Shown: positions 3,524 to 10,057 of the stretch, one piece after another
Numbering within the stretch: the first letter of the stretch is position 1
Layout of the letters: the number at the start of each line of letters is the position of its first letter
Assembly (NCBI GenBank): GCA_002509745.1
Contig: DAWK01000025.1
Coordinates: 11,977 to 25,776, forward strand
Origin: Methanobacteriaceae archaeon UBA349
GTDB lineage: Archaea > Methanobacteriota > Methanobacteria > Methanobacteriales > Methanobacteriaceae
Length of the DNA stretch: 13,800 nucleotides
Direction: 5' to 3'
The notes under the pieces: model-generated
The model's input: only the letters and a program-made list of their open reading frames with translations
Told to the model about the DNA's origin: nothing
Databases searched by the model: none
Program-made: the position numbers and the translations under genes

Positions 3524-4489
3524 TTAATTGTCTTTTAATTCCCCTATTTCCCTCAAAGCATCTTCATTATCTGGTGAAATTTCTAAGGCCTTCTCAAAAC
3601 ATTTTAATGCTTCTTCTTCATTTTCAGAACCTTTATAAACCACTCCCAAATTCATATAAGCAGCTTCGTATTCTGGATAAAGAGCTATGGCCTTTTCCAA
3701 TGATTCTATGGCATCATCGTTATTTCCCATACTGGCCAGAACACATCCCTGATAATTCCAGGCCTCGGGTTGTTCACTATCCAGTTCAATAGCTTTTTTA
3801 AATGATTCCAAAGCTTCTTCACCTTTTTGCATGAGGAATAAAACATTGGCCCGGTAGAAATGAGCTTTGTAATTGTTCCCATCCACTTCAATTAAGCGGT
3901 TCAGGCATTTCAGGGACTCATCATATCGACCCATATCCGCCAGAGTAGTTCCTAAATTATAAATAGCTGGTAAATAAGTGTTATCAATTCTTAAAACTTC
4001 TTCAAATGATTTTAAGGCATCTTGATCGTTCTGGAGAATGCTGTAAATAACTCCTTTATCATTCCAGGCTTCCAAGAAATCATTGCTGATATTTAGTGCC
4101 TTATTCAGGTATTCAAGTGCGGTTTCATATTCTCCCAGGTTAAAGTAGCAGCGAGAGAGATAATAATTTGCCCATTCACTTTCATCTATTTTTAAAGCCT
4201 TTTCAAAGGATTCGATAGCTAAAGGAAAATTTTCTATGTAATACAAGGTCAAGCCCTGACCATAAAGAGCAGAAGCGGTGTTCTGAATTTTTAAAGCCTT
4301 CTCAAATGATTTCAGTGCTTCATCATATTTTTCGACATTGCCTAGCGCATACCCCAGTTCACTGTAGGCCTCTTGAAAATCAGGATCAATTTCTATGGAT
4401 TTTTGAAATGATTTAATTGCTTCTTCATGATTTTCTGATTCTGAATATTTTTTTCCTTCTTCAAAGAATGTTTTAGACTTATCTGACAA
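3524..4489 (-). CDS. Nine-repeat TPR protein A (TTG start)
   Basis: The whole 321-residue protein is tetratricopeptide repeat. Nine consecutive 33-34 residue units begin around residue 3 (examples end in EEAIKSFQKSIEIDP, DEALKSFEKALKIQN and EEALKCFEKALEISP), and a short C-terminal helix, DNEDALREIGELKDN, caps them. It has no signal peptide, membrane segment or catalytic domain, so it is a soluble acidic scaffold that should bind other proteins. The start is TTG at 4489, chosen because GAGGAGAT lies just before it (4493-4500) and the first TPR begins at once. It aligns repeat for repeat with the next gene upstream (4606-5580), including identical stretches such as AIYNLG and LADxGxY, so the two are tandem paralogues. 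Partner proteins are unknown. Confidence 0.9.
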   Translation of the reverse strand: MSDKSKTFFEEGKKYSESENHEEAIKSFQKSIEIDPDFQEAYSELGYALGNVEKYDEALKSFEKALKIQNTASALYGQGLTLYYIENFPLAIESFEKALKIDESEWANYYLSRCYFNLGEYETALEYLNKALNISNDFLEAWNDKGVIYSILQNDQDALKSFEEVLRIDNTYLPAIYNLGTTLADMGRYDESLKCLNRLIEVDGNNYKAHFYRANVLFLMQKGEEALESFKKAIELDSEQPEAWNYQGCVLASMGNNDDAIESLEKAIALYPEYEAAYMNLGVVYKGSENEEEALKCFEKALEISPDNEDALREIGELKDN

Positions 4490-4492
4490 GAT

Positions 4493-4500
4493 ATCTCCTC
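4493..4500 (-). promoter_or_regulatory. Shine-Dalgarno site supporting a TTG start
   Basis: GAGGAGAT on the - strand ends three bases before the TTG at 4489, with its GGAG core five bases away. No ATG or GTG in frame competes near it, so it fixes the TTG as the start of TPR protein A. Confidence 0.6.
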
Positions 4501-4605
4501 TTAAATTGATTAATATTATTTAAATTTTATTTAAATTAGATTATTGTTATTATTTAATTCCAATCGTTTCTTTTTAGGTACTTTAGTAAAAAATTGGACT
4601 ATTAC

Positions 4606-5580
4606 TTAATCCCAATCATCTTTTAAGCTGTCTTTATAAAAAAGTGCTTCCTCATTATCTGGTTCAATTTCCAGGACTTTTTCAAAGGATTCTAAGGCCA
4701 GATCATCTTTACCCAAATCCAGGTAAACATTTCCCAGATTTAAATAAGGTGCCGAATAATCATTATTCAATTTAATGGCCTCTTTTAATGATTCAAGGGC
4801 TTCGTGATTTTGACCCAGGCTAAACTGTACATAGCCCAAATAATTCCACAATTCTTTCTGTTCATTGTCTATTTTAAGAGCTTTTTTAAAGTATTCTACT
4901 GCTTCTTCTTCTTTCTCCAGGAAGTAAAGAACATTACCCTTGTAAAAGAGTGCCTTGAAGTTTTCTGGATCGATTTCTATGGTCCGGTTTAAATATCCCA
5001 AAGCATCCTCATAATTACCACTATCAGCTAGAGTGGAACCTAGATTATAAATAGCTGTTTCATAGTAATTATCAATCCCCAATACCTGTTCAAAGCATTC
5101 TATGGCCCGTTCATCCTGTCCCATTATGCTATAGGCCACACCCAAGTCATTCCATGCCTCAACAAAGTCAGGATCCATGGAAAGAGAGATTTCAAAAGAA
5201 TTAACTGCGTTTTCATAATCCCCTAAAATAAGGTGGCAATCGCCCTTATAGTACCAGATATCCTCATTTTCCCCAATCTCCAGGGCCTGTAAAAATGAAT
5301 CTAGAGATTTTTCATAATCTTCTAATAAGAAAAGGGAAAGTCCCTGACCAAATAGGCCGGGAAATGAGTTTTGTATTTTTAAAGCATTGTTAAATGATTT
5401 TAAGGCCTCTTCATAGATTTCCATAGTTCCTAAAATGTATCCCAGTTCCAGTTGGGCCTCCATACAGAAAGGATCTGCATCTACAGCTTCACGGAAATAA
5501 TTCATGGCCTCCTGGGGCTTTCCATAGGTTAATAATTCTATTCCCTTTTGATAAAGTTTTTTAGCTTGATTATTGGTCAA
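4606..5580 (-). CDS. Nine-repeat TPR protein B (TTG start)
   Basis: This 324-residue tandem paralogue of the following TPR gene also has nine 33-34 residue TPR units and a short acidic cap (DNEEALFYKDSLKDDWD). Repeat 3 of both proteins shares an unusual 33-residue form containing GQGLxL, and repeat 6 shares AIYNLGxTLADxGxY. The frame is open further upstream to an ATG at 5655, but that 25-residue extension (MKFTLFISKIS...) has no TPR match. The TTG at 5580 follows AAGGAG (5588-5593) and gives MTNNQAKKLYQKG, which aligns with the start of paralogue A. The start at 5580 is therefore preferred. It is a soluble scaffold-type protein with no enzymatic domain. The 116 bases to gene A leave room for a separate promoter, so operon membership is open. 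Confidence 0.88.
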   Translation of the reverse strand: MTNNQAKKLYQKGIELLTYGKPQEAMNYFREAVDADPFCMEAQLELGYILGTMEIYEEALKSFNNALKIQNSFPGLFGQGLSLFLLEDYEKSLDSFLQALEIGENEDIWYYKGDCHLILGDYENAVNSFEISLSMDPDFVEAWNDLGVAYSIMGQDERAIECFEQVLGIDNYYETAIYNLGSTLADSGNYEDALGYLNRTIEIDPENFKALFYKGNVLYFLEKEEEAVEYFKKALKIDNEQKELWNYLGYVQFSLGQNHEALESLKEAIKLNNDYSAPYLNLGNVYLDLGKDDLALESFEKVLEIEPDNEEALFYKDSLKDDWD

Positions 5581-5587
5581 TTTATTT

Positions 5588-5593
5588 CTCCTT
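5588..5593 (-). promoter_or_regulatory. Shine-Dalgarno site that decides the TPR B start
   Basis: AAGGAG on the - strand lies seven bases before the TTG at 5580. It lies inside the longer open frame that begins with ATG at 5655, and that ATG has no ribosome binding site in front of it. Confidence 0.55.
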
Positions 5594-5887
5594 ATGATTA
5601 TATGGTAAATTTTATGTGTAAATGATATTTTTGAAATAAAAAGTGTAAATTTCACTGGTTTGAAAATAAAGTTTCAGCAAAATAAGATAATAGTAAGGTC
5701 TCTATTTTATTATATTAAAACTTATAATGATATAAATAAATTAATATATTAAGTAATCAAGTTCATCTAAAATTACAATTAATTAAAATAACCCCACGAT
5801 ATGAATTTAATTTCTATTAAATACTATTAAAATAGTTATCAACAAAAAATAAGAATAGAGAATTATTTAATTAAATATTTTAATAGA
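5594..5887. other. AT-rich intergenic region between TPR genes
   Basis: Nearly 300 bases lie between the TPR B ribosome binding site and the terminator of the next TPR gene, with no convincing coding frame. The part next to TPR B has two direct copies of GTGTAAAT, at 5616-5623 and 5643-5650, spaced 27 bases apart, plus a partial copy (GGTAAAT) at 5604-5610. The rest is low-complexity A/T with several TATA-like stretches, and none can be singled out. The promoter of TPR B must lie here if the gene is transcribed on its own. Confidence 0.4.
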
Positions 5888-5908
5888 TAAAAAAGGATAG
5901 GGTGTCCT
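5888..5908 (-). terminator. Short hairpin plus U-tract after TPR protein C
   Basis: On the - strand, about 28 bases after the TPR C stop codon, AGGAC-ACCCT-ATCCT forms a small four-base-pair hairpin and runs straight into six T's. The stem is weak, but the T-tract alone is enough for an archaeal terminator. Confidence 0.45.
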
Positions 5909-5935
5909 GAAATATTTAAATCTCATTAATTTATT

Positions 5936-6604
5936 CTATTTTTTTAAAATTTTCTCCATATTTAAAATAGAAATTTCATCACCAGGATTTAGTTCCAAGG
6001 CCTTTTGAAAACACTTTAATGCTTTTTCATTATCTTCCAGCCCCATCCAGGATACTCCCTGGTAGGAATAAGGCAAATAGTAATCCGGATCCATTTCAAT
6101 AGCTTTATTTGCAGACTTTAAGGCATCTTCAAATTTTGAGAGGGAATTTAAGCAGTTTCCCATTTCACACCACGATTGAACATCATCCACATTGATTTCC
6201 AGATGTTTTTCAAAAAAGGGAATGGCTTGATCACATTCATCTAGCCCTAAATAGTTGTATGCTCGAGCATAATAAGTAATTTCTTCTTCAAAGCCTTTTT
6301 CAATGGCCATATCAAAGTAATCATTTGATTCTTTAAATTGTTCTAAATCAGAAAGTGCATTGGCCTTAAGATAATATAATGATCCTATATCTGGATTTTC
6401 TTCTATCTGGCTTTCAATATATTCTAAAGATTCATCCAATGATTTTAATTCAGTGATAGCAAATGATTTATAGGCAATGGCGTTTTCAAAGATAGGGTCC
6501 ATATTTAAGGCCTTTTCAAAGAATTCTAATGATTTATCGTATTTTTCCTCGTCAAACAGGTCTAATCCCTGGTCAAAGTAGTTCCATTTTTCTTGGTCTT
6601 TCAT
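5936..6604 (-). CDS. Six-repeat TPR protein C
   Basis: This 222-residue protein consists of about six TPR units. It starts at residue 1 with EKWNYFDQGLDLFDEEKYDKSLEFFEKAL and ends with NEKALKCFQKALELNPGDE and a basic tail, MEKILKK. The units are more diverged than in TPR A and B: the middle repeats (ESLEYIESQIEENPD, ESNDYFDMAIEKG) depart from consensus. It is therefore a relative of those proteins and not a recent copy. No signal peptide, membrane segment or catalytic domain is visible. The ATG at 6604 has AGGAG eight bases upstream on the - strand. It is probably a cytoplasmic protein-interaction scaffold, with unknown partners. Confidence 0.9.
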   Translation of the reverse strand: MKDQEKWNYFDQGLDLFDEEKYDKSLEFFEKALNMDPIFENAIAYKSFAITELKSLDESLEYIESQIEENPDIGSLYYLKANALSDLEQFKESNDYFDMAIEKGFEEEITYYARAYNYLGLDECDQAIPFFEKHLEINVDDVQSWCEMGNCLNSLSKFEDALKSANKAIEMDPDYYLPYSYQGVSWMGLEDNEKALKCFQKALELNPGDEISILNMEKILKK

Positions 6605-6747: not shown

Positions 6748-7392
6748 CTAATACCTATTTTGTCGGTTAATATATTTTAAAAGATTGTTTAAACATTTCT
6801 TAGTGTAATTAGATAATTTAGAATGATTTTCTAAATAGCCAGCAACTGGAGGGCTGGTATGGTAATAAATTTCAACCAAAATTCGGCCCCAGATTCTTTT
6901 AAGAAGGTAATAGTCCCTGAAATTCCTTAAACTAATCACTTCTGGAGCATTAAAATCTCCGTAGGCCGCAGTGGCAATAAAGCATTTGTTTTTGAATCTT
7001 TCTTCCCTCACTTTTCCGTCTTCACGATTCATTTTCAACATATGATGCTCATTTTCTTCCATTAGTTGACAACCTTGTTCCATTAAATTAAGCATGAATT
7101 CCAGGTGCTTTTGATCCTTATCATGACAGTAATTAAGCAGTTCCATTATGGCCGAGCGATAGTTGGTCAATGCTAGAATAATTCCCGGGTGAGCCATTCT
7201 AAATTCCCAAGGTGGGTCCATGCGCTCCATATATTTTATTATACTGCTCATTTTTTTATAGTGCATGGTCAGATCTTTTTCTTGACATATTTTAAGCCCC
7301 ATTTCCGAATCATTTTTTCTTAAAATATCTAAAAAACCGTCTATGATTATCTGGGCCTCTGTGATCTTGTTCTGTATTTTAATTTCATACAT
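6748..7392 (-). CDS. Helical protein with C-terminal CFI-box domain
   Basis: The protein has 214 residues and two parts. Residues 1-132 are helical and charged with no family I recognise; they include the tryptophan/proline segment MDPPWEFRMAHPG (58-70) and two predicted long helices. From C137 the sequence is the CFI-box C-terminal domain: CFIATAAYG (137-145), then APEV, LRNFRDYYLL (155-164), GR (169-170), YY and SPPVA (180-184), and a basic tail. This module ends many otherwise unrelated bacterial and archaeal proteins, and its job is unknown. The hydrophobic segment after the cysteine is too short for an ordinary membrane helix. There is no signal peptide. The ATG at 7392 has a moderate AGGGG upstream. 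It lies upstream of the TPR gene cluster on the same strand and is divergent from the histidine kinase. Confidence 0.85.
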   Translation of the reverse strand: MYEIKIQNKITEAQIIIDGFLDILRKNDSEMGLKICQEKDLTMHYKKMSSIIKYMERMDPPWEFRMAHPGIILALTNYRSAIMELLNYCHDKDQKHLEFMLNLMEQGCQLMEENEHHMLKMNREDGKVREERFKNKCFIATAAYGDFNAPEVISLRNFRDYYLLKRIWGRILVEIYYHTSPPVAGYLENHSKLSNYTKKCLNNLLKYINRQNRY

Positions 7393-7680
7393 CTAGAAGA
7401 ACCCCTATTAAATGGTTATTAATTAATTTCAAAATTATTTTAGACAATTAGTACCTTTTTACATCCCATCTATTATAATCACATAATCGTGCTATAAAAT
7501 TAATTTACTATTCATTTAATCTATTTATTATAATCTATTTTTCGAAATTTATTCTTAATATATAAGTTTGACTTTAGAGATTAATTTATAAATATTTATA
7601 TTAACTTCTTATCAATTATTATTTATCGCAAATAAGAAATAATGAATAAAAAATAATTTTAATTCTTTATTTCACCTTAG
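7393..7680. other. Divergent promoter region, CFI-box gene and kinase gene
   Basis: About 290 A/T-rich bases separate the two divergent genes, and no coding frame of substance is present. A good TATA candidate for the kinase (listed separately) lies at 7585-7594. For the CFI-box gene several TATA-like stretches exist on the - strand, for example around 7492-7503, with none clearly best. No strong dyad that would suggest a shared operator was found. Confidence 0.4.
7585..7594 (+). promoter_or_regulatory. TATA box for the histidine kinase gene
   Basis: TTTATAAATA matches the archaeal TATA consensus well. It would place the transcription start near 7615-7620, leaving a leader of about 70 bases that ends in the AGAGGTGG ribosome binding site at 7679-7686. 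No purine-rich BRE is obvious before it. Confidence 0.4.
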
Positions 7681-7686
7681 AGGTGG
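7679..7686 (+). promoter_or_regulatory. Strong Shine-Dalgarno site before an ATT codon
   Basis: AGAGGTGG is one of the best matches in the window to the archaeal anti-Shine-Dalgarno consensus (GGAGGTGA). Its GAGGTG core ends five bases before the in-frame ATT at 7691. No ATG, GTG or TTG occurs in the kinase frame between here and the ATG at 7871. The site would have no purpose if translation began at 7871, 180 bases away. Confidence 0.65.
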
Positions 7687-7690
7687 TTTT

Positions 7691-10057
7691 ATTACAGATA
7701 ATCCCTTTGATCTTGAAGATGCACATCAAGAAATAAATAAACTAAAAGACAGAGTTTATAATCTTCAATTAAGGGAGCGACAATCTCGTGAAGCTCTGGT
7801 AGGGACTGAAGAGAGAATAAAAAAAATTTTAGAAAGTACCAGTGATGGATTCTTATCCATAAATGCTGAAATGAGAGTTGTTTATTTTAATAGTGCTGCT
7901 GAGGAGATTTTAAAAAGAGGTCGGCACGAAATCATGGGAATGGACATTTTTGAAGCATTCCCCCGAATAAAAGGATCTTTTTTTGAAGAAAAATATTATG
8001 AATCAATTGAAAGCGAAAGAAAAGTTTGTTTTGATGCTTATTTTGGAGAGCCCCCCCATGAAACATGGTATTATTTCAGAATAATCCCTAATTCCAATGA
8101 AATTTCCATATTTTTAAGAAATATAACTAAAGAGAAAAAAACAGAGCAGATACTATCCCAAGAAAAGGAAAAATATCATCTATTGGCAGATAATGCTACG
8201 GAGATAATATGTACTCATGACTATGAGGGAATATGTACCTATATCTCCCCCTATATCAAAAAACTCCTGGGATACTCTTCAGAGGAATTAACAGGTAAAA
8301 ACGTGTATAATATAATACCTCCCTCTGAACGAGATTTAATTAAGCAAAAACAAAAATATCTTTGTTTTAAAAACAAAATAGTTAGTTTTGAACATAGATT
8401 AATAAAAAAAGATGGTAGTTACTTGTGGGTTGAATCCAAAACCAATTCAGTTATGGATTCAAATGGCGAATTTCAGTATTTTATTGTAACTACTCGAGAT
8501 TTAAGTCATCACAAAAAGACTGAGAAACATTTAAATGAAACCGAACATTACTATAGAACTATTTTTGAAAACACGGGAACCGCATCAGTTATTATTGAAA
8601 AAGATAAAACGATTTCTCTGGTTAATTCTGAATTCGCAAAGCTTTATGGGCTTCCCAAAGAGGAAATTGAAGGCAAATTAAAGTGTACCTCATTTGTACA
8701 TCCCAGTTACCAGAAAATAATGGGCCGTTATCAATCTCAGAGATTTTTGGATCCAGATTCCGTTCCCAGGAACTATGAATTCAAGTTTTTAGACTATGAA
8801 CAGGAATCTAAAGACGTTTTTACGACCGCCAGTATAATTCCTGGTGCTCAAAAATCATTACTCTCCCTAATAGATGTGAGTGAACGAAACCGTGCTAATA
8901 ATCGACTTAAATGGGAATTAAAAGTCAATGAATCTTTAAATAAAATTTATGCACCATTAATTTCTTCCCAAACCAGCTTGGAAGATATTGCATATGTTAT
9001 TTTGGCCCAGGCCATGGAATTAACGGATAGTACATCTGGTTTTGTAAGCGAGATAATTCCTGAAACTAAAAACATGCTGATTCTTTCTATGATGCCACCT
9101 GTTCCCGATAACTATTATTTTTCCAAACCAATTATCCGAACCGGTGAAAATGAGAAGGGTAGTTTAATGAGCCACAGCTTTAATAAAAACGAGGGTTTTT
9201 TTACTAATAATGCATCTCACCACCCTTTATTTAAAAATATCAAAGGCCACCTAAATATCAATAGATTTCTTTCAGTTCCTGTTTTAAATGATGGAATAAA
9301 TGTAGGTCAAATTGCAGTTTCCAATTCTAAAAAAGATTACACCCAAAATGATGTGGAAGCCTTGGAAAGGCTGGCTGATTTTTACACCCTTGCCTTGCAA
9401 AAAGTTGGAAATGAAAACAAAATCCTGGAGTCTTTAGAGGAGAAGAAAGTACTTCTAAGGGAAATTCACCACCGGGTTAAAAATAATCTACAGATAATTT
9501 CCAGTTTATTGAATCTACAAAGCCAGTATATTGAAGATGATGTAACTCACGATGTTTTAATTGGAAGCCAGAATCGTGTACGATCTATGGCCCTGATTCA
9601 CGAGAAATTATATGGCTCCATCAGTTTAAATCATATTGATTTCGGAGAATACGTAAAAAACCTTTCAGAAAGCCTTATAAATAGCTATATCGAAATTCCA
9701 GGTAATGTGAAAATACACATTGATATTAAAAATGTTTATTTGAATATAGAAACAGCTATTCCCTGCGGATTAATGATAAATGAATTAATATCCAACAGCC
9801 TAAAGCACGGTTTTAAAGAGTCTAAAGGAAACATAAAAATAAAAATGGCTCCTAAAAACGAAGAATATATTTTAAAAATTTGTGATGATGGTGTAGGTTT
9901 CCCCGAAGAAATTGATTTCAGAAATACTGAAACTTTGGGAATGCAATTAATAAATAGTCTGGTTAAGCAGCTTGATGGTGAGATAAAACTGGTTAAAAAT
10001 TCAGGCTCTTGTTTTATTATTAATTTTAAAGAGTTGTGCTATAAAAAAAGAATTTAA
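7691..10057 (+). CDS. Soluble PAS-PAS-PAS-GAF histidine kinase (ATT start?)
   Basis: This is a cytoplasmic sensor kinase. Numbered from the ATT at 7691 (788 residues), it has a coiled coil (7-47) and PAS1 (47-150, [13 protein letters not shown]... to [10 protein letters not shown]). PAS2 (161-275), PAS3 (285-398) and GAF (410-570) follow. Then comes a HisKA_2-type dimerisation domain, [20 protein letters not shown], with the phosphoacceptor His at 594, and an HATPase domain with N-box [11 protein letters not shown] (697-707), DDGVGFP (732-738) and LGMQLI (from 749). There is no membrane segment, so it senses an internal signal or takes input from partner proteins. The first canonical start (ATG 7871, 728 residues) cuts into PAS1, so the upstream frame is surely coding. 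No response regulator is in the window. The gene converges on dapF, 13 bases apart. Confidence 0.9.

Follow-up and report, generated by a model that had tools for sequence, protein, structure and literature searches.

The window, by which we mean the whole stretch of 13,800 nucleotides analysed here, corresponds to G000:C12:203118-216917 in the genome of Methanobacteriaceae archaeon UBA349 (G000) and carries a histidine kinase gene behind a conserved promoter and leader. Two other species of the same genus, G001 and G002, were available for comparison. The features of the kinase locus are:

7570..7690, + strand: conserved promoter and 5' leader, with 6 substituted positions out of 121 in the three species plus small insertions
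7585..7593, + strand: TATA-box-like TTTATAAAT within the conserved block, recognized from the sequence
7636..7673, + strand: candidate AU-rich leader hairpin that fits all three sequences, with no compensatory changes
7673..7685, + strand: small hairpin CACCT-TAG-AGGTG, read from the sequence, which would pair part of the Shine-Dalgarno (SD) motif; the predicted fold of G001 differs
7680..7685, + strand: SD core GAGGTG within AGAGGTGG (7679-7686), from sequence, alignment and spacing
7691..7693, + strand: proposed initiation codon ATT, the same in 3/3 genomes
7691..10057, + strand: histidine kinase PAS-PAS-PAS-GAF-HisKA_2-HATPase, 788 codons plus stop (Pfam)
7811..8128, + strand: first PAS domain, residues 41-146, truncated by a start at 7871 (Pfam)
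7871..7873, + strand: first in-frame ATG, without SD; the start is called there for the homologues P0001 and P0003; probably internal

Elsewhere in the window, three adjacent repeat proteins are encoded at 3524-6604 on the minus strand; the two that were scanned are TPR proteins and the third (4606-5655) looks similar. Bases 1306 and 1360, both within a gene at 536-1411 (Pfam RrnaAD), differ from contig G000:C12.

The reading frame of the kinase opens at 7646, directly behind the last upstream in-frame stop (TGA, 7643-7645), and contains no ATG, GTG or TTG from there to 7870. This agrees with the first-pass annotation, which had described a frame extending 60 codons upstream of the ATG at 7871 without any of these codons; the ATT at 7691-7693 lies in frame at exactly that distance. 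With 75 codons, the kinase has the longest stretch without a canonical start among the 299 ORFs of at least 150 codons on contig C12. The probability of such a gap, computed from codon usage, is 0.016, and taken alone the missing canonical start is weak to modest evidence for initiation at AUU. An SD motif had been placed five bases ahead of the ATT. The motif is present, and the gap of five applies when it is counted from GAGGTG, with four bases (7687-7690) separating the longer AGAGGTGG from the ATT. In this register the ATT lies 7 nt past the projected end of AGGAGG, which is the modal spacing on contig C12 (seen in 82 of the 215 ORFs there that have an SD match of at least 5 before ATG, GTG or TTG). 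The upstream codons also complete the first PAS domain, as had been proposed: read from the ATT, the protein matches Pfam PAS_8 at residues 41-97 and PAS_4 at residues 47-146, and read from 7871 the first PAS unit is gone. Curated cut-offs were passed by HisKA_2 (96.5 vs 22.3 bits) and HATPase_c (38.8 vs 26.4 bits), and the predicted product is a PAS histidine kinase of the HisKA_2 type. The 2.36-Mb source genome holds 40 matches to the kinase (25 of 73 candidates were scored); some related genera have comparable numbers, others none.

The string GAGGTGGTTTTATT, which comprises the ATT, the SD and the spacer, was identical in all three genomes whose kinase N terminus was read. In the alignment of these orthologues position 7691 is thus occupied by ATT, not ATG, in both related species. 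The codons immediately behind it vary (codons 2-3 read ACA GAT, CCA TAT and CTA GAT), and the variable columns between 7691 and 7870 fall on codon positions 1, 2 and 3 in a ratio of 12/2/17. This bias indicates that the 60 codons before 7871 are coding. The frame is intact in G000 and G001; in G002 it lies in two pieces on the ends of contigs, both of them free of internal stops. The G000 kinase is 91% identical to that of G001 and 87-88% identical to the two G002 pieces. Neither the relaxed constraint nor the broken frame of a pseudogene was found; the G000 frame runs stop-free through 788 codons and the codon-position bias is maintained.

Database homologues were taken from the best 120 of 257 protein matches. 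Among the eight closest homologues, which were aligned, none begins at the equivalent of 7691, and starts are called at five places: the equivalent of residue 61 (P0001, P0003), 37 (P0002), 27 (P0004), only 84 (P0006-P0008), and an upstream in-frame Met (P0005). The last of these proteins, 61% identical to the kinase, reads IRGVF-IPDNLFDLEE at the position of the kinase start, with an Ile in the place of the ATT. Its Arg-Gly-Val is the translation expected from AGAGGTGT, and P0005 therefore seems to have retained the same SD together with an Ile codon. The evidence for P0005 is protein sequence, and that at the DNA level comes from the three congeneric species. A search with residues 1-120 of P0005 returned four proteins (P0005, P0002, P0001 and a distant one at 27%) and no new N terminus. 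A contig scan for further kinase orthologues gave 3 loci, of which one, the G002 record, belongs to a close relative. The family-wide DNA search matched 70 of 138 genomes (E <= 0.001), with matches outside the three congeners that were short and AT-rich (best E 3.4e-7). With P0005 as protein query within the family (138 genomes, E <= 1e-120) and P0008 across the class (151 genomes, E <= 1e-150), the same four genomes were returned, namely the three congeners plus G015, where the match does not include the N terminus.

The conserved block at 7570-7690 is less variable than the adjoining coding stretch (31 of 180 positions variable), and the intergenic DNA farther upstream (7411-7560) is just 43-72% invariant per 30-base bin. 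TTTATAAAT may serve as a TATA box, with transcription presumably starting about 25 nt downstream of it. The z-scores of five folds around the SD ranged from -0.16 to -1.38, and the 40 pairs in the three-sequence leader alignment showed no compensatory changes; on these fold scores and the absent covariation a riboswitch or thermosensor in the leader was dropped. An Rfam scan of 7380-7900 gave a single CRISPR repeat match (23.6 bits vs a gathering threshold of 47), which was judged to be due to chance.

Further candidate starts of this kind were found in the source genome, in which contig C12 (375 kb, 358 ORFs) and positions 1-400000 of contig C4 (348 ORFs) were sampled:

G000:C12:125842-127209: gatB, ATT 7 nt after AGGAGG
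G000:C12:240897: TetR-family gene (Pfam TetR_N), ATT after AAGGAGG, first ATG 30 codons on
C4:262864 and C4:94156: ORFs with ATA starts after the nine-base match AGGAGGTGA, conserved in G001
C4:297904: DUF460 ORF, CTG after AGGAGG, conserved in G001

The most widespread case is gatB. In the source genome its ATT (C12:125854) stands at SD+7, and the annotated ATG follows two codons on, 13 nt from the SD. Of 25 genomes, 24 yielded the gene, and 12/12 loci read, G000 included, carried ATT; ten further upstream regions had ATT (8) or ATA (2). When the pattern put no constraint on the codon, 17 of 151 genomes matched, with ATT in 17/17. A wider pattern, which required ATT, ATA or ATC at a variable distance from the ATG, had matches in 130 of 151 genomes and 0 for the reversed control; this pattern excludes ATG by design, and the absence of ATG rests on the 12 loci, the 17 matches and the upstream regions. 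Its 133 rows from the 130 genomes comprised in-frame ATT (112), ATA (19) and ATC (2), located at SD+7 in 130 rows and at SD+8 in the other 3; the ATG stands 2 to 9 codons downstream, and no ATG, GTG or TTG lies between the two in any of the 133. The 21 unmatched genomes include incomplete ones and sequence variants, and three of them (G027, G029 and G036) have ATT. The GatB proteins in the database start from the ATG: of their N termini (best 120 of 7985 matches), 110 begin with MKCGL and none with MKMKCGL. As judged from these sequences, gatB probably has an AUU or AUA start throughout the class.

In the sampled parts of the genome, codons were collected that precede the first canonical start by 2 codons or more and lie behind an SD match of at least 6 at a spacing of 6-8 (n=13). 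Single-base near-cognates of AUG made up 8/13 of these vs 18.9% expected (p=0.00085), and the six other spacing bins showed no near-cognate excess. With SD matches of at least 5 the excess was weaker (12/42, p=0.086), and in C12 alone ATT was not globally enriched after such matches. When C12 was compared with G001:C5 (228/358 ORFs matched), the kinase and gatB, both with ATT, were the only sites at least 2 codons upstream with an SD match of at least 6 in both species, in a comparison that takes the best conserved site per ORF and yields mostly chance SD matches inside genes. The comparison of C4 with G001 (191/348 ORFs matched, SD match of at least 5) gave near-cognates at 5 of 10 conserved upstream sites; among these five are the confounded protease described below and C4:213327, which has an ATG 2 codons further on. 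The TetR-family gene has orthologues in another genus (G014) and in G001 (loci L093 and L094) with ATT after GGAGG, that is, in 3 genomes of 2 genera; an ATG out of frame lies between SD and ATT in G000 and G014 and is missing in G001. The products of C4:262864 and C4:94156 would gain N termini that we read as putative, signal-peptide-like extensions. Candidate starts in G000 with ATT at C4:251168 and C4:305948 and with ACG at C4:56366 did not appear in the set of conserved sites from G001:C2.

Several candidates were set aside. The hydrogenase maturation protease at C4:162669 (ATA; Pfam HycI) was not counted as proof: its apparent SD overlaps sequence that seems to code for the preceding gene, and in four g19 genomes the corresponding position reads ATG. 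The methyltransferase ORF at C12:130712-131470 (- strand) without a canonical start has an ATG frame in G002, G010 and G013 and is frame-broken in G000, where it appears to be either a pseudogene or a sequence error. A difference between ATG and ATT in G000 and G001 at C12:130091 was not used, as the sequences are out of frame beyond it. A separate observation on C12 concerns the homoserine dehydrogenase ORF at G000:C12:86945-88039 (+ strand), which matches the NAD-binding profile only from position 55 and is preceded by AT-rich DNA; its N-terminal part is apparently missing.

The kinase is very probably translated from the AUU at 7691, giving a predicted product of 788 residues in which the first PAS domain is complete and preceded by an N-terminal linker. 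True AUU initiation was one of three options offered by the first-pass annotation, and it is strongly favoured by the combination of ATT and SD in 3/3 genomes and the Ile in P0005. In the proposed mechanism, the strong SD (GAGGUG) at the best spacing would hold the 30S subunit over the AUU, which the initiator Met-tRNA may read as a near-cognate of AUG with two of the three positions paired. Initiation of this type would be less efficient than from AUG and would respond more strongly to the factors that police start codons. Selection may keep the AUU such that the kinase stays low and open to control by start-codon stringency via aIF1; a low, tunable kinase level through a weak start is plausible.

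The AUU could also be a passive relic, whereby any near-cognate behind a strong SD works well enough and the codon drifts without a regulatory role. The presence of near-cognates in several genes of unrelated function, together with the alternation of gatB between ATT, ATA and ATC among genera, makes this a possibility to be taken seriously, if the less probable one. Against it, gatB has no ATG at this position in the 17 codon-free matches although ATG is one substitution away, which suggests selection against AUG. The other alternatives concern the site of initiation itself. Translation from the ATG at 7871 or a later ATG, with the 60 upstream codons as untranslated leader, corresponds to the choice of gene callers for P0001 and P0003, but is very unlikely given that these codons evolve as coding sequence and hold the first part of the PAS 1 domain, that no SD precedes 7871, and that the residue equivalent to 61, the Met at 7871, is Leu in P0005. 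Initiation in another frame, from which the kinase frame would be reached by frameshifting or reinitiation, might draw on a short ORF of 4 codons (MNKK*, 7642-7656, opened by the ATG at 7642), which has 3-codon counterparts in the relatives, or on the GTG at 7683-7685, which lies inside the SD and opens a short overlapping frame. The short ORF, however, stops ahead of the SD, the GTG has no SD of its own, and the SD-to-ATT spacing is modal and repeated by gatB in many genera, so that this route has a slighter chance still. A recent ATG-to-ATT mutation in this strain, leaving a damaged and poorly translated gene, or a wrong base call at 7691 would need no more than one changed base, ATT being a single base from ATG, but both are excluded for practical purposes because ATT, SD and spacer are kept in all three species, the frames are stop-free and P0005 has an Ile codon, while codons 2-3 vary and the substitutions follow codon position.

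Translation from AUU, the preferred reading for the kinase, has counterparts in bacteria, where near-cognate starts behind strong SD motifs are already known. Like the kinase, E. coli infC, which encodes IF3, and pcnB start with AUU, and they are described as the only E. coli genes that do so (PMC9410913). The first-pass annotation had drawn the comparison with infC. It holds for the type of start codon and fails for autoregulation: E. coli IF3 discriminates against its own AUU (PMC9410913), whereas the archaeal product is a PAS/HisKA_2 kinase and no initiation factor, and aIF1 begins at an ATG after AGAAGGAGACATAA in G000 and G001, the two genomes read. In Staphylococcus aureus, infC (AUA), cvfC1 (AUU) and ccpN (AUA) likewise combine a near-cognate with a strong SD, and the cvfC1 start is conserved among relatives, as is the AUU of the kinase (PMC13009471). 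In poor medium, AUU and AUA starts with extended SDs gave about 10% of the expression obtained from AUG, and ccpN reached up to 30% in rich medium (PMC13009471). These starts are bacterial and were demonstrated by Ribo-Ret and reporters (PMC13009471), whereas the archaeal kinase start is predicted from sequence. An archaeal parallel is the Asgard tubulin gene atubA, whose annotated start is too short: to complete the fold, translation has to begin at an ATT farther upstream, which has a plausible ribosome-binding site (PMC13394414). That ATT concerns a single gene, was inferred for cloning, and is described in a passage without class-wide conservation (PMC13394414).

Reconstructed switches from AUG to AUU starts amount to 1 in 61,358 (PMC5622118), and an archaeal initiation review, in the sections considered, gives AUG, GUG and UUG as start codons and nowhere mentions AUU (PMC7531240). 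Among the literature matches listed, no title or abstract opening reported AUU or near-cognate starts in Methanobacteria. Within these matches, the conservation of such starts over an archaeal class and their recurrence within one genome appear to be new. More broadly, Methanobacteria might use AUU and AUA, and occasionally CUG or ACG, behind strong SD motifs as a selected minority of starts (about 1% of the sampled ORFs, gatB and the kinase among them) that share a layer of control by aIF1 stringency hidden by annotation; we put this forward as a tentative proposal with a chance not far short of even. With AUU, AUA or AUC at gatB in most methanogens of the class and AUU at the kinase, the group offers a natural and testable set of archaeal near-cognate starts, which is relevant to the way in which fidelity of start-codon choice is set by aIF1 and the SD. 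The findings also indicate a systematic error in N-terminal annotation, as such starts are overlooked by gene-finding software.
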